Below, piece after piece: positions 5,495 through 21,167 of a stretch of 64,000 nt of DNA; the first letter of the stretch is position 1, and every line of letters starts with the position of its first letter. Location: contig NZ_JARHUJ010000009.1 in the NCBI RefSeq assembly GCF_029223285.1, positions 124,001 through 188,000 of the forward strand, read 5' to 3'. Under the pieces are notes generated by a model that saw nothing but the letters and a program-made list of their open reading frames with translations, was not told the DNA's origin and did no database searches. The position numbers were made by a program, and so were the translations under genes. Source of the stretch: Paraflavitalea sp. CAU 1676 (GTDB taxonomy: Bacteria > Bacteroidota > Bacteroidia > Chitinophagales > Chitinophagaceae).

Positions 5495-6208
5495 ATGAAA
5501 AACAAATACCTTAAAGGCGCCCACCTTTCCGAACGGAAAGTGAGGGAGCTATTGAAACTGTTTTGCGAAGACCTCACCGCTACGCAAATAGCAAACATCT
5601 CCGGTATAAGCCGGATCACGGTGAACGCCTATTTTAAATTGATTCGCACCCACATTGCCAGGTTTTGCGAAGAAAAGAATCCCTTACGTTACCGGAATGG
5701 TGACGTAGCCTTCCTCCCCATGGAGCACGGGATTGGGCATAGCCCCGAAAGCAATGGACTCACGGGTAAGAAAGCATTCTACGGCATTTTCAAGAAGGAA
5801 GAGCACATTTTCACCGACAAGATGCCCTGTGTTGAAACCAGTTGGTTGTACGACTGGCTGAAAGGCAGGGTAGAAGCCGATGAAGAGTTGTTGCAGCGGC
5901 ATCACCTGCATGTGTACAACGGGATCGCCGACTTCAACAATGTGCGTCTGCTGCGACTGCAGGCGGGCCTCAATGGAAATGTACGGGGAAGATCACACAT
6001 CGATGAGATCGACCTCTTCTGGGGTATGCTGAAAGCCCGGCTGGTCAAGTTCAGGGGCCTTAATGGAAACACCCTTTACCTACATGTGAAGGAAACAGAA
6101 TTCCGCTACAATTTCAGGGATGCCGACATCTTCGAATTGTTGCTGGATATCCTGCACAAACAGCCATTACATTATTCCAAGATCGTTCGGCAAAAGGCCG
6201 AAGGATAA
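5495..6208 (+). CDS. IS1595/ISXO2-like transposase-derived protein, probably inactive
   Basis: 237 aa. An N-terminal helix-turn-helix (about residues 12-52, LTATQIANISGISRITVNAYFKLI) is followed by a region that resembles the ISXO2-type DDE domain. The C-terminal block around residues 168-206 (HIDEIDLFWGMLK ... KETEFRYNFR) matches the end of IS1595-family transposases. Aligned by eye, the usual catalytic positions look substituted: the first Asp region reads FLPMEHGIG, and the Glu of the N-x-IE-x-FW motif is Asp. A DNA-binding but non-cutting role, or a decaying transposase, are both possible. No full terminal inverted repeats or target duplication were found, only an 11-base inverted pair (5324-5334, 6468-6478). 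Confidence 0.6.
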   Translation: MKNKYLKGAHLSERKVRELLKLFCEDLTATQIANISGISRITVNAYFKLIRTHIARFCEEKNPLRYRNGDVAFLPMEHGIGHSPESNGLTGKKAFYGIFKKEEHIFTDKMPCVETSWLYDWLKGRVEADEELLQRHHLHVYNGIADFNNVRLLRLQAGLNGNVRGRSHIDEIDLFWGMLKARLVKFRGLNGNTLYLHVKETEFRYNFRDADIFELLLDILHKQPLHYSKIVRQKAEG

Positions 6209-6303
6209 AACTTACTCCGGGGATTTTCCGGTATATGCCTATCGCAACTCATCCCTGGATCATTAAAAACAGTTGCGGTAATAGAATTTTTCTCATGTGA
6301 CTC

Positions 6304-6334
6304 GCAGGTGGTTTCTACCACCTGCTTTTTTTTT
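6304..6334 (+). terminator. rho-independent terminator after the IS1595-like gene
   Basis: Perfect 8-bp stem gcaggtgg (6304-6311) with ccacctgc (6318-6325), loop of six, followed by nine T residues. Its stem closely resembles the terminator at 11439-11468. Confidence 0.92.
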
Positions 6335-11360: not shown

Positions 11361-11438
11361 TGAAAAAGCTATGCCCGAGAGCTCAAATTGGGTGCTTTAC
11401 TTTCAACATCGTAGGGTAATAGCAAGTCTCATGGAAAG

Positions 11439-11468
11439 GCAGGTGGTATTTACCGCCTGCTTTTTTTT
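11439..11468 (+). terminator. rho-independent terminator after susC-1/susD-1
   Basis: gcaggtggta (11439-11448) pairs with taccgcctgc (11451-11460), one G-U pair and a two-base gap, then eight T residues. Confidence 0.92.
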
Positions 11469-11775
11469 GTGAGAAAAGTCATTTTGTCACCAGAAACTTT
11501 GCCAGACCGACCTAATCCGATGCTCAAACATCGTTTTTGTGCACCGAGCCGACGTAAAAAAGCGACATTGATCAGCTATTGACTGCGGGTCTAAACAAGG
11601 ACAGCGAAATCAATAATCGTCGGGTTTTTACATGGTTATGATGTAATGAAGTAAAAAATCATAGTAAACCCGGGAATCGGGTGAATCTTTATAAGGCTTT
11701 ACGGGATTCAGGGGCCAAAAAGTGGGGTTTGATAGTCAAATTTGGAACTTTGGTGGGTCAAGAAAAACGCAAGAC
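11469..11775. other. non-coding stretch before the LytTR gene
   Basis: About 300 bases with no supported gene. It presumably carries the LytTR promoter; only AT-rich runs and a weak 5-bp hairpin near 11518 were seen. Confidence 0.4.
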
Positions 11776-12347: not shown

Positions 12348-12407
12348 CGTCATTCTGGCTAATATTGCTGCGCAAACATTATCTGGTAGCATATTAGTAT
12401 TGTGGGT
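12348..12407 (+). repeat. upstream direct repeat, copy 1 (promoter of AraC copy 1)
   Basis: Begins cgtcattctggctaatatt and ends just before the ATG at 12408. The same block precedes each of the three AraC paralogues at 60-61 bases from the start codon. It includes a conserved TAGTATTG a few bases before the ATG, resembling the TAnnTTTG -7 element. Confidence 0.75.
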
Positions 12408-13541
12408 ATGACTGATTCGATGTTTATTTTGCCCGGTTTTTTCAAGTGGCTTTTCCTAATGGCGGGGGCCCAGGGAGTTATTCTATCGCTGGTACTCTGG
12501 CGCCATAAAAGCAACCGTAAGCAAAACAGGCTGCTGAGTCTGATCGTGCTGATCTATTCTTATGCAGTATTCTTTTTTATAGGTACATATACTAAGGAGG
12601 TCTTTTTCCATCCCCTGTATCCCGGCGTGGTATCGGGCTGGGTATTCGGAACTACTGGCGTTGTCTTATTGCTGATGTATGTACGTACCTGTTTTGGGCT
12701 ACCGGCCCATCCACCAAGGGCCTGGTTGTACTGGATTCCCACAGCTTTCTTCCTGGTAATATTGGTAATGCATTATGCACATCCCGAAAGGGAGGGGGGG
12801 CGTTATGGCAATTGGGGAAGACTTGGTGTTGCCTATGTTGTTTTTATGACCGGGCTTTGCTATTACAGGTTCCGTCAATTCTCCAGGTGGGGAACCATGG
12901 CAATACAGAGCCAGAAAACCAAACAATACCTTCGTTGGGTGCTGGCCTTTTTCGCGACCTACTCAGGCATGCAGATCGTTAGCTTTTCGCTGTGGGATTT
13001 TATTTCTTTCGAGGCTTCGCTATACATTTCAATTGCGGTAAAGCTGTTTACTACGCTTGGTATCTATGCCATCGCTTACCTGAATGTGCAGAATGCGCAC
13101 CAGGTGGCGCCGGTAATGATGGCGTTGCCGGTTGAACAGGCAGAAAAATACCGCTTCTCTTCGCTCGATGAAGATACCGCCAACAGTATTCGTGAACAGT
13201 TGATGGCGTTGGTAGGGGCAGAGAAGATCTACCTGCAGCGCGACCTCAAGCTCAAGGATGTGGCCGACCGATTAAATACCACCGTGCATCATTTATCGCA
13301 GGTACTCAATGAGCGGATGGGTATAAGCTTCCCCGACTTCGTCAACAAGCTGCGCATCGAAGAAGCTACCCGCCTGCTGGCAGGCGGCGACGACAGCAAG
13401 ATCGAATCCATTGCCCTCGATACCGGTTTCAACAACAAAGTGTCGTTCAACAAAGCCTTCAAAAAGTTTACGGGACTTACTCCCTCCCAATACAAAACGC
13501 AGCACCACACTGTTTCGGGGGTCGATGCCAACCTCAATTGA
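12408..13541 (+). CDS. membrane-bound AraC-family regulator, tandem copy 1
   Basis: 377 aa. The N-terminal ~225 residues form about seven hydrophobic segments (first FKWLFLMAGAQGVILSLVLW, last YISIAVKLFTTLGIYAIAYL). A short linker follows, then an AraC HTH domain over about residues 275-365 (DVADRLNTTVHHLSQVLNER ... IESIALDTGFNNKVSFNKAFKKFTG-LTPSQYK). This suggests a membrane sensor with a cytoplasmic DNA-binding output. The start MTDSMFILP at 12408 is chosen because it is shared with copy 2 and gives identical lengths; the in-frame ATG at 12402 is two codons earlier. It is the first of three paralogues with the same upstream repeat. Ligand and targets are unknown. Confidence 0.88.
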   Translation: MTDSMFILPGFFKWLFLMAGAQGVILSLVLWRHKSNRKQNRLLSLIVLIYSYAVFFFIGTYTKEVFFHPLYPGVVSGWVFGTTGVVLLLMYVRTCFGLPAHPPRAWLYWIPTAFFLVILVMHYAHPEREGGRYGNWGRLGVAYVVFMTGLCYYRFRQFSRWGTMAIQSQKTKQYLRWVLAFFATYSGMQIVSFSLWDFISFEASLYISIAVKLFTTLGIYAIAYLNVQNAHQVAPVMMALPVEQAEKYRFSSLDEDTANSIREQLMALVGAEKIYLQRDLKLKDVADRLNTTVHHLSQVLNERMGISFPDFVNKLRIEEATRLLAGGDDSKIESIALDTGFNNKVSFNKAFKKFTGLTPSQYKTQHHTVSGVDANLN

Positions 13542-13730
13542 GCAATAGAAAGTTAAAGCATCTCCTTTCTGTCTTTGCGCCATTGCCGATGGTTTAGCCG
13601 CAAACTTACCGTGATCTCGCAACTCCATAAAACTGAGGTGATTGTCACCGTGTCATCCGTATGGGTAATGACAAAAAAGGACCCCGGGATTAATTTTAGT
13701 AAAAAATTAATTGACCGGTTGGCACATGAT

Positions 13731-13791
13731 CGTCATTCTGGCTAATATTGTTGTGCAAACATTATCTGGCAGCATTATTAGTATTGTGTGA
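13731..13791 (+). repeat. upstream direct repeat, copy 2
   Basis: Starts cgtcattctggctaatatt and ends directly before the ATG of AraC copy 2, matching 12348-12407 with few changes. Similarity to copy 3 extends another ~35 bases upstream (AT-rich run, then ttgacc and ggcac). Confidence 0.75.
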
Positions 13792-14925
13792 ATGACTGAT
13801 TCAATGTTCATATTGCCCGACTTTTTCAAGTGGCTTTTTTGGATGGCGGGAGCCCAGGGGATCATATTATCCATTGTGTTGTGGCGTCAAAAGAGTAACC
13901 GGCAACAGAACAAATTGCTGAGTTTGATATTGCTGACCTTTTCATTGGGTCTGTTCTATTTCATTGCTACTTATACTAAAGCAATTTATTCTCATCCGCT
14001 ATATCCCGGCACCATGTCGGGATGGATTATCGGTACGGCAGGCGCCACCTTGTTGTTAATGTACCTGCGCACCTGCTTCGGTTTACCCGCCCATCCGCGA
14101 ATGGCCTGGTTATACTGGTTGCCTACCGCTTTTTTTGTCGGGCTGGCGATCGTTTATTATACGAATCCAAAACGCAATGGGGAAGATTACGCGCTGCTTG
14201 GCTGGATAGGGCTGCTCTATTTTATCAGTATTACTATTTTATGTTGCCTCAGGTTCAGTAAGTTTTCCCGGTGGAGTACGATTGCCCAGCAAAGTCAGAA
14301 AACAAAACTGTACCTGAAATGGGTTTTGTCGATGTATGCTTCTTATTGTGTGTTGCAGCTTATTACCTTTTCCCTATGGTATTTTGTACCCTTTGTAGTT
14401 GCATTGTATGTATCGGTGTCGGTAAAGCTGATCACGTCCGTTGCCATTTATGTGATTGCCTACCTCAATGTGCAGCATGCGCACCAGGTGGCGCCGGTGA
14501 TGATGGCGTTGCCGGTTGAGCAGGCTGAAAAATACCGCTTCTCTTCGCTCGATGAAGATATGGCCAACAGTATCCGTGAGCAGTTGATGGCGTTGGTAGG
14601 AGCGGAGAAGATCTATCTGCAGCGCGACCTCAAGCTCAAGGAGGTGGCCGACCGGTTGAATACCTCGGTGCATCACCTGTCGCAGGTACTTAATGAGCGG
14701 ATGGGCATAAGTTTCTCCGACTTCGTCAACAAACTGCGAATTGAGGAAGCTGCCCGCCTGCTGGCCGCTGGCGACGACAGCAAGATAGAATCCATTGCCC
14801 TCGACACCGGTTTCAACAACAAGGTATCGTTCAACAAAGCCTTTAAAAAGTTTACAGGCACTACGCCCTCCCAATACAAAATACAGCACCTGGCAGATGC
14901 AGCTATCGATGCGCACCACCATTGA
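13792..14925 (+). CDS. membrane-bound AraC-family regulator, tandem copy 2
   Basis: 377 aa, exactly the length of copies 1 and 3. Seven hydrophobic segments (about 10-225) precede an AraC HTH domain. From the segment NVQHAHQVAP to TPSQYK it differs from copy 1 at only 9 of 140 positions, while the membrane half has many more changes (TFSLGLFYFIATYTKAIYSH here against IYSYAVFFFIGTYTKEVFFH). It therefore probably recognises the same DNA as its siblings but may sense a different cue. It lies 250 bases after copy 1 with its own copy of the upstream repeat, so it is likely transcribed separately. Confidence 0.88.
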   Translation: MTDSMFILPDFFKWLFWMAGAQGIILSIVLWRQKSNRQQNKLLSLILLTFSLGLFYFIATYTKAIYSHPLYPGTMSGWIIGTAGATLLLMYLRTCFGLPAHPRMAWLYWLPTAFFVGLAIVYYTNPKRNGEDYALLGWIGLLYFISITILCCLRFSKFSRWSTIAQQSQKTKLYLKWVLSMYASYCVLQLITFSLWYFVPFVVALYVSVSVKLITSVAIYVIAYLNVQHAHQVAPVMMALPVEQAEKYRFSSLDEDMANSIREQLMALVGAEKIYLQRDLKLKEVADRLNTSVHHLSQVLNERMGISFSDFVNKLRIEEAARLLAAGDDSKIESIALDTGFNNKVSFNKAFKKFTGTTPSQYKIQHLADAAIDAHHH

Positions 14926-14982
14926 AGACTTCCCCTGAACGCAGGTGAATAAAAAATTGTATTTGACGGGTAGGCACCTGAT

Positions 14983-15043
14983 CGTCATTCTGAATATTAT
15001 CGCCTGGCAAATATTTTCTGGCAGCATTGTTAGTATTGAGTGT
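14983..15043 (+). repeat. upstream direct repeat, copy 3
   Basis: Diverged copy beginning cgtcattctgaatattat and ending before the ATG at 15044. The TTAGTATTG block near the start codon is kept. It overlaps a TTG/ATG-poor extension that could be misread as an N-terminal extension of copy 3. Confidence 0.7.
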
Positions 15044-16177
15044 ATGAAGGATTCAATGTTCATATTGCCCGACTTTTTCAAGTGGCTTTTTTTGATGGCG
15101 GGGGCGCAGGGCGTCTTTTTGTCAATTGTGTTGTGGCGTCATAAAAGCAACCGGCAACAGAATAGATTGCTGAGTTTGATCGTGCTGGCCTTTTCCTTGT
15201 CCTTGTTTTACTTCATCGCCATCTATACCAAAGCGATTAATACCCATCCTTTATTTCCAGGCATCGTGACCGGTTGGGGGCTGGGTACCGCCTGTGTCAC
15301 CTTGCTGTTGATGTATGTAAGGACCTGCTTTGGATTGCCGGCCAGTCCCCCGATGGCCTGGCTGTACTGGTTGCCCACCGCCTTCTTTGCAGGGCTGATG
15401 GTGGTGTTTTATGCCGACCCCAACAGGGATGGCGCAAGTCTTGGGGAATTTGGATGGGTTGGACTTGTGTATGTCCTGACCATAACCTGTGTTTGTTTTT
15501 ACAAGTTCTATAAGTTTTCTCAATGGGGTACCATGGCGCAACGGAGTCAAAAGACCCGGCAATACCTGCGCTGGATATTGTTATTCTTTGCAACGTACTT
15601 TGGTGTGCAGCTCATCAGGGCCATACTCTGGTTTTTTGTACCCTTTGAGATCTCCCTCTACATTGCCATATTGATAAAGCTGTTTTCTACTGTCGGTATC
15701 TATGCCATTGCTTACCTCAATGTGCAGCATGCACACCAGGTGGCGCCGGTGAGGATGGACTTGCCGGTTGAACAGGCTGAAAAATACCGCTATTCTTCAC
15801 TCGATGACGATACCGCCAACAGTATCCGAGAGCAGTTGATGGCGTTGGTTGGTGCGGAGAAGTTCTACCTGCAGCGCGACCTCAAGCTCAAGGGGGTTGC
15901 TGACCGTTTAAACACCACCGTGCACCATTTATCGCAGGTGCTCAATGAACGAATGGGCGTTAGCTTTCCCGACTTCGTCAACAAACTGCGTATTGAAGAA
16001 GCTACCCGTCTGCTGGCGGGCGGCGACGAGAGCAAGATCGAATCCATCGCCCTCGATACCGGCTTCAATAACAAGGTATCGTTCAACAAAGCCTTTAAGA
16101 AGTTTACAGGAACTACTCCTTCCCAATACAAAATGCGGCGCCTTACGGATGAAGCTGCGGATGCAAGCCTCCAGTAA
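15044..16177 (+). CDS. membrane-bound AraC-family regulator, tandem copy 3
   Basis: 377 aa, third paralogue with the same seven-segment membrane half and AraC HTH output. The frame is open back to 14945, but that part is the conserved promoter repeat; starting at MKDSMFILPDFFKW (15044) restores the length shared by all three. The HTH domain keeps the same helices (GVADRLNTTVHHLSQVLNER, IALDTGFNNKVSFNKAF). It is followed by the promoter of the SAM riboswitch unit. The three genes are most simply explained by tandem duplication including the promoter. Confidence 0.88.
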   Translation: MKDSMFILPDFFKWLFLMAGAQGVFLSIVLWRHKSNRQQNRLLSLIVLAFSLSLFYFIAIYTKAINTHPLFPGIVTGWGLGTACVTLLLMYVRTCFGLPASPPMAWLYWLPTAFFAGLMVVFYADPNRDGASLGEFGWVGLVYVLTITCVCFYKFYKFSQWGTMAQRSQKTRQYLRWILLFFATYFGVQLIRAILWFFVPFEISLYIAILIKLFSTVGIYAIAYLNVQHAHQVAPVRMDLPVEQAEKYRYSSLDDDTANSIREQLMALVGAEKFYLQRDLKLKGVADRLNTTVHHLSQVLNERMGVSFPDFVNKLRIEEATRLLAGGDESKIESIALDTGFNNKVSFNKAFKKFTGTTPSQYKMRRLTDEAADASLQ

Positions 16178-16318: not shown

Positions 16319-16326
16319 TATATTTG
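16319..16326 (+). promoter_or_regulatory. Bacteroidota-type -7 element before the SAM riboswitch
   Basis: TATATTTG is an exact match to TAnnTTTG and lies 22 bases before the first base of riboswitch helix P1, placing the transcript start at about 16330-16335. No clean TTTG -33 element was seen at the expected distance. Confidence 0.6.
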
Positions 16327-16348
16327 CTACGTTCTTTTTTATGTGTTG

Positions 16349-16499
16349 CTTATCAAGAAAGGCTGAGGGAAAACGGGCCCGATGACGCCTTGGCAACCCT
16401 TCTTATGTTTCATGCTGTATAGACATTGTGCATGATGCTGAGGATGAAGGTGCCAATTCCTGCTCCATCGAAAGGTGGAGGTAGATAAGTCTGTGTACA
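16349..16499 (+). ncRNA. SAM-I (S-box) riboswitch aptamer
   Basis: The consensus core is present in order: cttatcaagaaaggctgagg, then gggcccgatga, ccttggcaaccc, ggtgccaattcctgc and closing gataag. P1 forms between cttatc (16349-16354) and gataag (16494-16499). P3 is long, with cttc/gaag at its base and a catgc/gcatg extension. P4 is ctccatc-gaaa-ggtggag, a stem with a GNRA tetraloop. SAM-I aptamers bind S-adenosylmethionine and normally control methionine or SAM genes; none is found downstream here. Confidence 0.95.
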
Positions 16500-16542
16500 G
16501 CTTTGAAAGGCACTGCCATTGGCATTGTATAAATATTTTCAG

Positions 16543-16578
16543 GCTCACCTGGCTTATTTGCAGGTGAGCTATTTTTTT
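16543..16578 (+). terminator. riboswitch expression platform: intrinsic terminator with antiterminator
   Basis: gctcacctg (16543-16551) pairs perfectly with caggtgagc (16561-16569), then ta and seven T residues. The loop plus stem edge, gcttattt (16552-16559), can pair over 8 bases (two G-U) with the 3' strand of P1, agataagt (16493-16500). This is the expected switch: SAM-bound P1 leaves the terminator free, while unliganded RNA forms the antiterminator. Confidence 0.85.
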
Positions 16579-16648
16579 GCCCACACTTCAGGAATCATTC
16601 AGTAACCATTTTAAAAAACTTCCCGATCAGCTACCAGGCTTTGCAGTA

Positions 16649-16780
16649 ATGCTTCGCCCATGGTTTTCCGGGAACATTCAGGAGGGTTTTGTTTCTTCTT
16701 ATATGTCAATGTCCGCTTTGTCCTTATCCCGGTTAAGCCGGGATGGGACACGGGCAAAAGCAGGAAGAACTAAAAATTGA
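16649..16780 (+). CDS. possible 43-aa small protein in riboswitch read-through region
   Basis: The only ATG-started frame of note between the riboswitch terminator and the next terminator. It encodes MLRPWFSGNIQEG...RTKN, with no recognised domain, signal or membrane segment. The DNA around 16721-16750 folds into a hairpin (atcccgg/ccgggat with an outer gtcc/ggac), which suggests the RNA rather than a protein may be the product. Low confidence as a gene. Confidence 0.15.
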   Translation: MLRPWFSGNIQEGFVSSYMSMSALSLSRLSRDGTRAKAGRTKN

Positions 16781-16832
16781 CAGTAACCTTTGTTTCAAAT
16801 AGTAGATTTTCTCATGTGACCTTTTGGTTAAC

Positions 16833-16865
16833 CAGGGATTGTTTTTACTTTCCCTGCTTTTTTTT
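16833..16865 (+). terminator. second terminator between the riboswitch and rteC-like gene
   Basis: caggga (16833-16838) pairs with tccctg (16851-16856), followed by a T run to 16865. It lies 44 bases before the RteC start codon, so riboswitch transcripts should stop here even when the first terminator is read through. Confidence 0.75.
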
Positions 16866-16908
16866 GAAACCCGTTTATTCAAAATCCCTATAACCCCCTG
16901 GACCGTCT

Positions 16909-17463
16909 ATGAAAGATCAATGCCAACGCCTGTACGATGCAATGCTTTCCGAAATGGAGCAATGCAGGCAACAGCATACATCCGAGAAAGAGCAGATCGA
17001 ATGTGCTTTTCGCACCTGCGAAATGAACTGGAAAAAGCTTCAGACCCTACTACACACCTACCGGTTTCAAAGTGAAGCCGAAGAAGCCTGGTTCTTCAAG
17101 ACCATCAAGCCCAAATTTACCGGCCTCATCGAATACTATGCCCTCGTATACAAGGCTGCCCTGTTTCTGCCCGATGACGATGCCCGTGATATCAACCGTT
17201 TCTGGCAAAATGAACTACAGCTGGCCCGGCGCTTTTTTGCCGAACATGAAACGTTCTATAAATATTATAAGGCAGGTCTTACCGAAATGGACACCATTTA
17301 CTTTGTACGCGCCAACAACGATCCTACGCTGGTGCCTGCCGCCAAGGCCTACGATATTGCCCCCGAAGCCACTACGTCGCACGACCACCTGGTAGCGTCC
17401 ATCATTGCCCGCGAACGGTATATGGAATACGTACAGCGGCAGCTGCAGCGCATGACTAATTAG
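16909..17463 (+). CDS. RteC-domain protein
   Basis: 184 aa. The sequence follows the RteC pattern: W-x-x-L near residue 44, SEAEEAWFFKTIKPKFTGLIEYYALVYK, then FFAEHETFYKYYKAGLTEMDTIYFVRAN, and a C-terminal TTSHDHLVASIIARERYMEYVQRQL. In Bacteroides, RteC activates excision of the conjugative transposon CTnDOT. No integrase, excisionase or transfer gene is seen in the window, so this is a free-standing chromosomal member of unknown role. The terminator 44 bases upstream implies its own promoter. Confidence 0.82.
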   Translation: MKDQCQRLYDAMLSEMEQCRQQHTSEKEQIECAFRTCEMNWKKLQTLLHTYRFQSEAEEAWFFKTIKPKFTGLIEYYALVYKAALFLPDDDARDINRFWQNELQLARRFFAEHETFYKYYKAGLTEMDTIYFVRANNDPTLVPAAKAYDIAPEATTSHDHLVASIIARERYMEYVQRQLQRMTN

Positions 17464-17626: not shown

Positions 17627-17634
17627 TATATTTG
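17627..17634 (+). promoter_or_regulatory. -7 promoter element of the ECF sigma gene
   Basis: TATATTTG matches TAnnTTTG and lies 24 bases before the ATG at 17658. It supports that start over the upstream in-frame TTG at 17592, which would lie before the promoter. Confidence 0.5.
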
Positions 17635-17657: not shown

Positions 17658-18230
17658 ATGGCAGTTAACGATACGGGCAGCATTCAGCTAAGGACTGAGA
17701 GCGGCACGACTCTTTTTGAGGATGTTTTTAAATCGCATTTTAAGAACCTGCATGCGTATGCCTGCACGATCGTTAAGGATGATATCATGGCCGAAGAGAT
17801 GGTGCAAAACGTGTTCTACAAGATCTGGGAACGCAAGGCGCATCTCAATATTCAAACCTCCCTGACTGCCTACCTGTACCGCGCTGTGTACCACGAAAGT
17901 CTCAATTACATCAAGCACCTCAAGGTCAAAACCGCCTACCAGTCCTATGCAACAGCGCGCATGAATCAACAAGCCGATAACGCCGAGAAGAAAGTTTTGC
18001 TGGGTGAGCTGGAAGCGCGTTTGCGTACCGCCTTGCAGGAGTTGCCCGAACAGTGCCGCACCATATTTCAGATGAGCCGGTTCGAAGAATTGAAATACCA
18101 GGAGATCGCCGACCGCCTGGGCTTATCCATCAAGACGGTAGAAAACCAGATGGGGAAGGCCCTTAAGTTGATGCGATTGAAACTGATCGATTTTTTACCG
18201 TTTCTGATCCTGTCCCTGTTAAACCTGTAA
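17658..18230 (+). CDS. RNA polymerase sigma factor, ECF (FecI-like) subfamily
   Basis: 190 aa. Region 2 is visible as LFEDVFKSHFKNLHAYACTIVKDDIMAEEMVQNVFYKIWER (about residues 18-60), and region 4 as LQELPEQCRTIFQMSRFEELKYQEIADRLGLSIKTVENQMGKALKLMR (about 125-172). The spacing and the sequence NVFYKIWE are typical of the Bacteroidota sigma factors paired with FecR anti-sigma factors. The FecR gene starts 32 bases later, followed by an STN-domain protein, so the three form a cell-surface signalling unit. The regulon is unknown; the STN gene is an obvious candidate target. Confidence 0.93.
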   Translation: MAVNDTGSIQLRTESGTTLFEDVFKSHFKNLHAYACTIVKDDIMAEEMVQNVFYKIWERKAHLNIQTSLTAYLYRAVYHESLNYIKHLKVKTAYQSYATARMNQQADNAEKKVLLGELEARLRTALQELPEQCRTIFQMSRFEELKYQEIADRLGLSIKTVENQMGKALKLMRLKLIDFLPFLILSLLNL

Positions 18231-18262: not shown

Positions 18263-19225
18263 ATGAACGATGACCTGCTGGTAAAATACCTGCTGCAGGA
18301 AACCACGCTGCACGAAAGCAGAACGGTGGAATCCTGGATCAGGGCCACTCCTGGCAACCAGCGGTATTTCGATCACTTTAAGTTGATCTGGGACCGCAGC
18401 CGCGAGCTTGCTGCCACCAGCAGCGTAGATGAAGAAATGGCGTGGCAGCGTTTTCAGCAACGGGTGATCGAAGATGGAACGCCGTCGCGCGGTATCGTGC
18501 GCACTATGAACAGGCGCACGAGCAGCTGGCAGGTGGCCGCCATCCTGGCGGGCCTGGTGGGCATAGTGGCCATGATCTACTATTTTGGGCGCCTTGGAAA
18601 AACGCCGGTAGTGCTGGCGGCCGCGGAAATCGCCCAGGTCGATACCTTGCCCGATGGATCGGTGATCACCCTCAACCGCCATTCCTCCCTCAGCTATGCC
18701 GGTGGCTACAATGAAAAGAAAAGAACCGTAGCCCTGAAAGGCGAGGCTTTCTTCAGCATCGTACCCGACAAAAAGAAACCCTTTGTGGTGGAGGTGAATG
18801 GCATCACAGTTACAGTAACCGGTACTTCTTTCAACATCAAGACCACGGGCCGCCAAACAGAAGTGATCGTTGAAACCGGTACGGTGCTGGTAAGCAATGG
18901 CCACGAAACCATTGCCCTTACGCCAAAGGAAAAGGTGATCGTAGCCGATCCCGATTCAACCCTCAACAAAGAACAAAACACCGACGACCTGTACAGGTAT
19001 TACCGCGACAAAACCTTCGTTTGCGATAAAACACCCCTTTGGAAAGTAGTGAAAGTGATCAATGAAGCTTACGATGCCAATATTGTTATTGGATCGAAAG
19101 AGCTGGCACAGCAGCCACTCTCTACTACTTTTCACAATCAGTCGCTGGATCAGATACTAGTCGTACTCCAGGAAACATTTGGTTGCACCATTGAACGTAC
19201 CAATTCCACGATCGTGTTGAAATAG
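18263..19225 (+). CDS. FecR-family anti-sigma factor
   Basis: 320 aa inner-membrane protein that would hold the ECF sigma factor and receive a signal from the STN domain of a partner. The cytoplasmic N-terminus begins MNDDLLVKYLLQ. A membrane segment lies at about residues 90-112 (WQVAAILAGLVGIVAMIYYFG). The FecR domain follows (DTLPDGSVITLNRHSSLSY ... VTGTSFNIKTTGR), and the C-terminal DUF4974/STN-like domain (DKTPLWKVVKVINEAYDANI ... TIVLK) ends the protein. A TTG at 18242 would extend it by seven residues. It ends 19 bases before the STN gene. Confidence 0.93.
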   Translation: MNDDLLVKYLLQETTLHESRTVESWIRATPGNQRYFDHFKLIWDRSRELAATSSVDEEMAWQRFQQRVIEDGTPSRGIVRTMNRRTSSWQVAAILAGLVGIVAMIYYFGRLGKTPVVLAAAEIAQVDTLPDGSVITLNRHSSLSYAGGYNEKKRTVALKGEAFFSIVPDKKKPFVVEVNGITVTVTGTSFNIKTTGRQTEVIVETGTVLVSNGHETIALTPKEKVIVADPDSTLNKEQNTDDLYRYYRDKTFVCDKTPLWKVVKVINEAYDANIVIGSKELAQQPLSTTFHNQSLDQILVVLQETFGCTIERTNSTIVLK

Positions 19226-19244
19226 TTATACTACACATTAAGTT

Positions 19245-21167
19245 ATGAAGCAGTTAGCAGGATTGGTAAGCGCCGCCTTACTCACTATTCTTTTATTGTT
19301 TTCCACCGCCTCTACCGCACAGAGCATCCTTGGCCGAAACGTTTCCTTTGTCGTGAACCGTCAGCAACTGGATCAGGTGCTGGAGATACTGAGTAACAAG
19401 GCCAATTTCTATTTCTCCTACAACAGCAATATCATCAAGGGGGATAGCCTCGTTACGCTTACTGTTTATAACAAGACTGTAAAGCAGGTGATGGAGCAAT
19501 TGTTTCCCAACGGGTATGAATACCGTGAGAGCGGCAATTATATCATCCTCCGTAAAACGCCGATCAAAATACCGGCTGTTACCAGCCGTACGGAGACGGA
19601 AGAGAAATATTACTTCATCAGCGGTTATATCCTGGACGATCAAACGGGCGAAACGATCCCCCATGCCAGTATCTATGAAAAAAGTCAGCTGGCTTCCGCG
19701 ATGAGTGATGGGCAGGGCTATTTCAAACTGAAACTGAAGAGCCGGTACAGCCGGGCATCCCTTACAGTGAGCAAAGATCTGTACCTCGATACCACCATCG
19801 CTGTGCAACCCAAATACAACCAGCAGATGTCGATTGCCATCATGCCGGTGGAAGTGTCGGACAAGACTATCACCATTACACCGTATACCTTCGAGGTGCC
19901 CGATTCGATCGTGGTGGCCGTGCGCAAGGCCGATAGTACACACTGGATCTATACATATCGCAAAGCCGATTCGGCCATGGTCGACAAAACGAATATCGGC
20001 CGATGGTTCCTGTCCACCTGGCAAAAGGTGCAGGCCATCAACATGAAGAAATTCTTCACTGTGCGTCCCTACCAGCTATCGCTGCTGCCCGGCCTCAGTA
20101 CGAACGGTCCGCTCAATAGCCAGGTGATCAACAATGTGTCGCTCAACGTATGGGGCGGCTACTCGGGCGGGGTGAATGGGGTAGAGCTCGGTGGCTGGTT
20201 CAATATCGACAACAAAGATGTTCGCTGGGTACAGTTCGCCGGCTGGTTTAATGTGGTAGGCGGGCGCATGACGGGCGTGCAATTAGCAGGTATTCACAAT
20301 ACGGTCATGGATAGTGTGAACGGGGTGCAGGGCAGTGGTATATCCAACCACGTGCGGAGAAACTTTACGGGCGCGCAATTGGGCGGCATCTACAACCACG
20401 TGGGTGGCAGATTGAATGGCGTACAGGCTGGTGGTATAGGCAACTATACCAATAGCGGTACTACGGGTGCGCAAGTGGGCGGCATATTCAACGTAAACAG
20501 CCGGTCGTTCAATGGAGCGCAGATTGCCGGGGTGGTCAATGCCAACTTCAAGAATATGCGGGGTGCCCAGGTAGCCGGTCTGCTGAACGTAAACCTGGGG
20601 GAGGTAAAAGGCGCGCAAATTGCGAGCATTATCAACTATACCAAAAAGCTGTCGGGCGTGCAGATCGGGTTGATCAATATCGCCGATACTTCCGACGGCT
20701 ACAGTATCGGGTTGGTCAACATCATCTTCAAAGGATATCATAAGCTGGCGTTGTATGGTAACGAGGAGTTTCCGTTCAACGCGGCTTTCAAAACGGGCAA
20801 TTCCAAATTGTATAGCATTCTGCTGGCGGGTGTAGAACCTACCAAAGACGAAAAGGCCTACACCTTCGGATATGGTTTAGGACACGAAAGGAAGTTCAAC
20901 AGAAAGCTGGCACTCAATATAGAAGCTACTACGCAGCATGTATACCTGGGCAGTTGGGACTACCTCAACCTGCTAACGCGGCTGGAGGCGCACGTGCATC
21001 TCAAGCTGGCCAAATGGTTTTCGATCTACGCTGGTCCGTCGGTGTCACTCTATTACTCCGATCAGGAGACCAAATTCACGGGTTACAAACAAAATATCCG
21101 CTCGCTCGACAAAGGAAAGAACCTGGCCGTATGGTCGGGCTTCACAGTGGGTATGCACTTGTTCTAA
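19245..21167 (+). CDS. STN and carboxypeptidase-regulatory-like domain protein with LA_2272-type surface repeats
   Basis: 640 aa. A signal peptide (cleavage near STAQ, residue 26) leads into an STN domain (about 27-108, SFVVNRQQLDQVLEILSNKANFYFSYNSN). A carboxypeptidase-regulatory-like domain spans about 122-200 (YFISGYILDDQTGETIPHASIYE). From about residue 297 to 497 there is an array of ~20-22-residue units of the form G-x-x-L/V-G-G-I/W-x-N (GVELGGWFN, GVQLAGIHN, GAQLGGIYN, GVQAGGIGN, GAQVGGIFN and others). The rest is probably outer-membrane beta structure ending in HLF. It takes the position normally held by a TonB receptor after fecI-fecR, so it is the likely signal-giving partner of FecR. 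Confidence 0.8.
   Translation: MKQLAGLVSAALLTILLLFSTASTAQSILGRNVSFVVNRQQLDQVLEILSNKANFYFSYNSNIIKGDSLVTLTVYNKTVKQVMEQLFPNGYEYRESGNYIILRKTPIKIPAVTSRTETEEKYYFISGYILDDQTGETIPHASIYEKSQLASAMSDGQGYFKLKLKSRYSRASLTVSKDLYLDTTIAVQPKYNQQMSIAIMPVEVSDKTITITPYTFEVPDSIVVAVRKADSTHWIYTYRKADSAMVDKTNIGRWFLSTWQKVQAINMKKFFTVRPYQLSLLPGLSTNGPLNSQVINNVSLNVWGGYSGGVNGVELGGWFNIDNKDVRWVQFAGWFNVVGGRMTGVQLAGIHNTVMDSVNGVQGSGISNHVRRNFTGAQLGGIYNHVGGRLNGVQAGGIGNYTNSGTTGAQVGGIFNVNSRSFNGAQIAGVVNANFKNMRGAQVAGLLNVNLGEVKGAQIASIINYTKKLSGVQIGLINIADTSDGYSIGLVNIIFKGYHKLALYGNEEFPFNAAFKTGNSKLYSILLAGVEPTKDEKAYTFGYGLGHERKFNRKLALNIEATTQHVYLGSWDYLNLLTRLEAHVHLKLAKWFSIYAGPSVSLYYSDQETKFTGYKQNIRSLDKGKNLAVWSGFTVGMHLF

Follow-up and report, generated by a model that had tools for sequence, protein, structure and literature searches.

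A predicted SAM-I riboswitch conserved ahead of a multicopy terminator motif and a short rteC-like gene in Chitinophagaceae

Gene content and conservation of the locus

The window considered here, by which we mean the whole 64-kb stretch of DNA that was analyzed, contains a predicted SAM-I riboswitch that is followed by an intrinsic terminator, a noncoding stretch ending in an element termed R1, a short rteC-like gene, and genes encoding an ECF sigma factor, a FecR-like anti-sigma factor, and an STN-domain protein (Table 1). This order, from the riboswitch through the terminator, R1, and short rteC to the sigma, FecR, and STN-domain genes, was found in all 11 genomes compared. These genomes represent two genera: g1, with five genomes that include Paraflavitalea pollutisoli H1-2-19X and a metagenome-assembled genome (MAG) labelled Niastella sp., and g3, for which the six genomes are a sample that includes Pseudoflavitalea rhizosphaerae, Pseudoflavitalea sp. 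G-6-1-2, a Pseudobacter MAG, and a Chitinophagaceae MAG. Paraflavitalea and Pseudoflavitalea both belong to the Chitinophagaceae, and the wider searches of this family used 394 genomes (294 for the SAM-I survey) drawn from a larger group.

SAM-I riboswitches are usually positioned before sulfur or methionine genes. An earlier note on this DNA had remarked that nothing related to sulfur metabolism follows the switch, and this was confirmed, as the genes that come next encode the RteC-like protein (PF09357), the ECF sigma factor, FecR, and the STN-domain protein. The note had also called the switch an orphan, a description that did not hold up, since the same downstream order is kept in 11/11 genomes of the two genera. 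The homolog search that it had proposed, for a unit conserved without a met gene, recovered exactly such a unit in every one of these genomes.

Table 1. Features of the riboswitch unit and the genes that follow it (positions in the window)
Feature	Position	Strand	Description and evidence
Promoter element TATATTTG	16319..16326	+	Matches TAnnTTTG, the -7 promoter element of Bacteroidota, exactly; found in 11/11 units
SAM-I riboswitch aptamer, long P3	16347..16491	+	RF00162, 79.3 bits; covariation over 11 sequences
Predicted antiterminator	16482..16560	+	Overlaps P1 3' strand and terminator 1 5' half and loop; fold
Intrinsic terminator 1 of the riboswitch	16542..16578	+	Fold; 94.2% of cells paired in 11 sequences
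Structured RNA domain, genus g1 only	16680..16790	+	Near-invariant in 5/5 g1 genomes; z -5.0
R1 element	16805..16866	+	Box UUUUCUCAUGUGA, then a small hairpin and a terminator hairpin (apical GU....AC conserved) with its U run; models R1 and R2; covariation
Terminator 2 (3' part of R1)	16833..16865	+	Hairpin 16833-16856, T run to 16865
Short RteC-like gene	16909..17463	+	184 aa; PF09357 positions 2-123 of 219; adjoins the switch in 11 genomes
Promoter element TATATTTG	17627..17634	+	Exact -7 element 31 nt ahead of the sigma start codon
ECF sigma-70 factor	17658..18230	+	PF08281, PF04542
FecR-like anti-sigma factor	18263..19225	+	PF04773
STN + CarbopepD_reg_2 domain protein	19245..21167	+	Outer-membrane location predicted from domains

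The genes upstream of the switch differ between the two genera. They are of AraC type in four of the five g1 genomes, and five of the six g3 genomes carry a shared gene set in this place, whose protein sequences we interpret as ilvN-ilvC-ilvA; in G001 and G268 the upstream genes are unlike those of their own genus as well. Because the genes above the riboswitch promoter differ and the block below it is kept, the conserved block begins at the riboswitch promoter. In the window, three similar AraC-type regulator genes stand in tandem upstream of the unit (12402-16177).

The promoter box itself was noted earlier as an exact TAnnTTTG element, and it was recovered as TATATTTG ahead of the aptamer in each of the 11 units. 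TAnnTTTG is given as the -7 consensus for B. fragilis (PMC7366714, in part). Between R1 and rteC, an exact TAnnTTTG was present in none of the 11 units. The sigma gene has an exact box of its own 31 nt before the start codon in 10 units, as scored by script. For the remaining unit (G177), the script probably set the sigma start codon too far upstream, and a box lies at +943. These boxes bear on the possibility that the sigma-FecR-STN cluster is the main beneficiary of read-through from the switch, which would place cell surface signaling under SAM control. The cluster does lie downstream in the same order in 11/11 genomes, but with an exact box of its own before the sigma gene in 10 of them and two terminators preceding that gene, we consider such control improbable.

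The SAM-I aptamer and its terminator

By score and covariation, the aptamer is a member of the SAM-I riboswitch family, as the earlier note had recognized, and we predict that it binds SAM. It matches RF00162 with 79.3 bits (E = 5.1e-17) against a gathering score of 44.4, no other Rfam match at gathering thresholds was found within the 64-kb window, and the aptamers of all 11 units exceed the RF00162 cutoff. Across the aptamer and terminator 1 in the 11 sequences, 91.2% of cells are standard pairs, and the number of double-change cells is 42, compared to 16.4 in shuffled alignments and 4 to 26 in slid versions. Double changes occur in four of four pairs of lower P3 and in five of seven pairs of P4 in these sequences; P1 and P2 are nearly invariant and thus uninformative for covariation. 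In the apical P3 helix just 65.0% of cells are paired.

P3 is a variable stem in SAM-I riboswitches. The apical P3 sequence is nearly identical among the five g1 copies, which is unusual for such a stem and would suit a terminated aptamer RNA that acts in trans like SreA and SreB of Listeria. The g3 copies do not have that sequence, however, and we regard a role of this kind, proposed by analogy, as quite unlikely.

The earlier note had also raised the idea that the switch is the remainder of a unit that lost its gene. That no met gene lies downstream would fit a decaying remnant, but the core is near-invariant, the aptamer and terminator covary, the exact promoter box precedes 11/11 copies, and the same genes follow them; decay is therefore very unlikely. 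Each of the five g1 genomes, the source genome included, has two SAM-I aptamers, and the second stands upstream of a cystathionine gamma-synthase-like gene (a name assigned from the protein sequence) in all five, so the met role is served elsewhere.

A terminator whose loop can pair with the 3' strand of P1 to form an antiterminator had been described from the sequence, and predicted folds form both structures with shared strands. When positions 16480-16580 are folded, terminator 1 forms (-29.4 kcal/mol); when the fold is cut before the terminator closes (16480-16560), the antiterminator forms through the P1 3' strand (-22.9 kcal/mol). In the 11 sequences the terminator is well kept (Table 1), whereas the antiterminator has 77.9% of its cells paired and a covariation score that 55 of 500 shuffles matched. 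Several of its inner pairs are kept in 11/11 sequences, several g3 copies cannot form the outer ones, and the conservation of the antiterminator is suggestive.

The noncoding stretch and the R1 element

The earlier note reported about 250 bases without a convincing gene between the two terminators. This description stands with respect to protein-coding genes, as no conserved reading frame was seen by eye in positions 16579-16866 of the five-species g1 alignment, but the stretch is not empty. After a portion that diverges among the g1 genomes (~16600-16675) comes the structured domain at 16680-16790, followed by a block kept in both g1 and g3 (~16790-16866). The structured domain is missing from all six g3 units, and it hardly varies and so is beyond what covariation can judge. 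A conserved small open reading frame in 16700-16790 (ATGTCAATG...) was considered and rejected by eye, since indels make the frames diverge among the five species. On the opposite strand of the noncoding stretch there was no evident antisense gene, only mechanical open reading frames. A search of Rfam with positions 16480-16910 returned five weak matches, none of them ANTAR, a result that is informative only if Rfam includes an ANTAR family. The second terminator that had been placed before the rteC-like gene was confirmed; it is formed by the 3' part of R1.

Rfam 15 gave no credible match for the downstream block or for 13 R1 loci. We describe the element by two models of our own, of which model R1 was built from 15 sequences and model R2 was built partly from short-rteC loci, which makes it mildly circular for counts of R1 beside short rteC; the E values of both are rough. 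The box UUUUCUCAUGUGA is single-stranded in the minimum-energy fold. In an alignment of 91 matches (83 distinct), the eight hairpin pairs are 97.0% standard and seven of them show double changes, with 110 double-change cells compared to 34.6 in shuffled alignments, the alignment having been fitted to the same structure.

At E ≤ 0.1, model R1 matched 206 of the 394 family genomes, where ~39 would be expected by chance. Outside g1 and g3, 14 genomes reach E ≤ 2.5e-12, of which four had contributed to model R1. A search of the class at E ≤ 0.01 matched 23 of 295 genomes, including three Chitinophagaceae; the remaining 20 exceed the ~3 expected, but these matches are weak (best, 5.6e-4), so that R1 is not clearly present outside the Chitinophagaceae. 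Judged by these sequence searches, R1 is a multicopy Chitinophagaceae motif that is absent from Rfam 15, and its strong covariation makes it a candidate RNA family.

In the source genome, R1 occurs at 8 places at E ≤ 0.01 and at 11 at E ≤ 0.1. The nearest mechanical open reading frame upstream of R1 is on the same strand in 42 of 47 loci, and downstream the next such frame lies on either strand; some copies come after an ECF sigma gene. Another R1-class element in the window, at 6286-6334 on the forward strand (E = 2.7e-7), has the box TTTTTCTCATGTGAC and the hairpin GCAGGTGGTTTCTACCACCTGC and lies ~80 nt past the stop codon of a 237-aa open reading frame (5495-6208). A weak one is found at 11422-11469, also on the forward strand (E = 0.079). 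In four g1 genomes (loci L097, L098, L099, and L100), a second similar sequence, with CTCATGTGCATC and then a hairpin-like stretch around CTCTTCAGGGTACAGAAGAGG, lies past the second R1 copy.

A short RteC-like protein associated with R1

The protein encoded after R1 is like RteC (PF09357) in its N-terminal part and differs from it in having no C-terminal part, so that it falls short of a full-length PF09357 domain. The five other rteC-family genes of the source genome are full length (277 to 305 aa) and have no R1 nearby. Short forms of rteC, defined here as open frames under ~245 aa, are also present elsewhere in the Chitinophagaceae, as shown by a search of the 394 family genomes. Among 34 short rteC loci outside the SAM units, R1 lay on the same strand and no more than 450 nt upstream in 17 with model R1 at E ≤ 0.001 and in 19 at E ≤ 0.05; the 34 exclude L107, which was recruited through R1 itself, and the R1-positive loci include L235 (G381), which supplied a sequence to model R1. 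The set also leaves out four candidates in G209, G288, G309, and G196, and the source list may be incomplete. Model R2 placed R1 upstream of 16 of the 34 loci (17 of 35 when L107 is counted). For full-length rteC, R1 was found in 0 of 11 loci with model R1 at E ≤ 1 and in 0 of 11 with model R2 at E ≤ 0.05, these controls being loci of convenience (five from the source genome and six others).

A scan of 35 locus records, 33 of them with short rteC, gave no SAM-I aptamer at the gathering score, the sole match being one tRNA; L227 was outside that scan, though L250 covers the L227 gene and 2.8 kb upstream of it. As R1 precedes half of the short rteC genes examined and none of the full-length ones, and SAM-I was not found at these other loci, R1 and short rteC form a pair of their own. 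In the g1/g3 clade, the predicted SAM-I switch is placed ahead of this pair.

The arrangement of R1-class elements around short rteC varies among loci. They flank the gene on both sides at L229, L234, and L247, stand in tandem upstream of it at L249, L250, and L261, and lie downstream of it, as detected with model R2, at L228, L238, and L248.

The short RteC has an all-helical predicted fold (pLDDT, 80.1). A search of the PDB by fold returned nothing at E ≤ 0.001 (best E, 0.6), and by sequence the best E value was 0.13; NCBIfam gave no match, and the best E values against PHROGs and PADLOC were 0.33 and 0.2. In type III toxin-antitoxin systems, a ToxN-like fold is encoded behind tandem RNA repeats. 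Such a system was considered because of the tandem R1 elements before some short rteC genes, and it was rejected on the grounds of the all-helical RteC model, the empty PDB fold search at E ≤ 0.001, and the single R1 before rteC at this locus. We also compared the R1 box with the rteC start codon by eye: some copies could pair, the source copy would pair poorly, and we do not claim such pairing.

Two proposed terminator gates or a possible regulated noncoding RNA

We lean, with modest confidence, toward the view that the SAM-I element is an OFF switch in the leader of the short rteC-like gene, where it is the first of two terminator gates. With SAM bound, P1 would hold, and terminator 1 would end a leader RNA of ~250 nt. 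Without SAM, the 3' strand of P1 would pair with terminator 1 in its 5' half and loop, and RNA synthesis would proceed through the noncoding stretch to R1, whose terminator (to 16865) would stop most transcripts and leave a noncoding RNA of ~535 nt. The fraction that reads through past R1 would yield the short RteC protein, and the ECF sigma/FecR/STN cluster would follow downstream with its own promoter box. Termination in vivo, read-through, and the roles of R1 and the short RteC are steps that we infer, and the noncoding RNA that ends at R1 may be a product in its own right. Against this scheme, terminator 2 looks strong, so that rteC may hardly be read, and rteC could be served by a promoter of another type; the limited pairing of the antiterminator and of the apical P3 helix also counts against it.

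It is also possible, though we hold this more tentatively, that the switch has the R1-terminated noncoding RNA as its regulated product. This RNA would be repressed by SAM and would belong to a multicopy family of small RNAs that work like FopS of Bacteroides; the box UUUUCUCAUGUGA would pair near start codons or bind a protein, and rteC would be a neighbor or a minor product. The number of R1 copies in the source genome, the single-stranded box, and the covarying terminator hairpin all suit such an RNA. The position of R1 elsewhere, mostly 3' of open reading frames, fits a transcript end better than it fits a gate. By our own arithmetic, the complement of the box is UCACAUGAGAAAA, possibly a start region. 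In two g3 units (G227 and G006), TACGTTTG lies ~20 nt ahead of the R1 box, so that R1 might start separately there. FopS offers a precedent, with 14 copies, a single-stranded 5' stretch followed by a terminator, and binding near susC start codons (PMC11697453, in part). R1 is like FopS in being multicopy and in having a single-stranded stretch and then a terminator, features read from its sequence and fold, but the two are likened by description and not by sequence, R1 is clear in the Chitinophagaceae only, and it lies mostly 3' of open reading frames (42/47). An R1 RNA product would also leave the link between R1 and short rteC unexplained, and R1 has no credible match in Rfam. Sequence cannot decide between this possibility and the leader with two gates, which we continue to favor.

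In a broader and somewhat more speculative proposal, R1 would be an undescribed Chitinophagaceae family of multicopy noncoding RNAs, one of which is the output of the SAM-I switch, and the short RteC coupled to it would act with R1 elements genome-wide. The SAM level would in that case feed into an RNA-based regulatory network.

Relation to known systems

SAM-I switches are known as cis controllers of methionine genes. The unit described here is like other SAM-I (S-box, RF00162) riboswitches in the sequence and structure of its aptamer and in its terminator-type platform, and it differs from them in standing ahead of a noncoding stretch, R1, and short rteC. In Listeria, B12 riboswitches control the noncoding RNAs Rli55 and AspocR, and in these, as in the unit proposed here, a riboswitch with a terminator is followed by a longer noncoding RNA (PMC8079631, in part); here the noncoding stretch has a terminator of its own. 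The present unit differs in that the predicted ligand is SAM and not B12, a protein gene directly follows, no match named ANTAR was obtained, and there is no evident antisense gene. SreA and SreB are SAM riboswitches whose terminated form is a short RNA, and SreA acts in cis on a putative operon for methionine uptake (the same source, likewise in part). The predicted unit shares with them a SAM riboswitch with a terminator and a predicted short terminated RNA, and it differs from SreA in having no methionine-uptake gene behind the switch.

The literature, mainly what is freely available, was searched by title or the start of the abstract, and among the matches listed there was neither a SAM-I riboswitch before an rteC or ECF sigma gene nor a report of the R1 motif. 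A conserved SAM-I riboswitch leading a noncoding RNA and a short RteC beside an ECF sigma system would extend the targets of SAM-I and would give a handle on RNA regulation in the Chitinophagaceae. R1 is genetically linked to short RteC proteins, and this link is directly testable.

The SAM-I survey matched 231 of the 294 family genomes. The context of SAM-I was inspected in a minority of these, and other SAM-I loci without a met gene may therefore exist. At locus L102 (~1880-2031), TATATTTG and a stretch resembling the 5' half of SAM-I run straight into an R1 element; this region had no Rfam match at E ≤ 0.05. At six loci, three in g3 (L120, L122, and L131) and three in g5 (L121, L123, and L127), a run of cysteine codons follows the SAM-I aptamer before the next genes and, judged by eye, resembles a cysteine-rich leader peptide.
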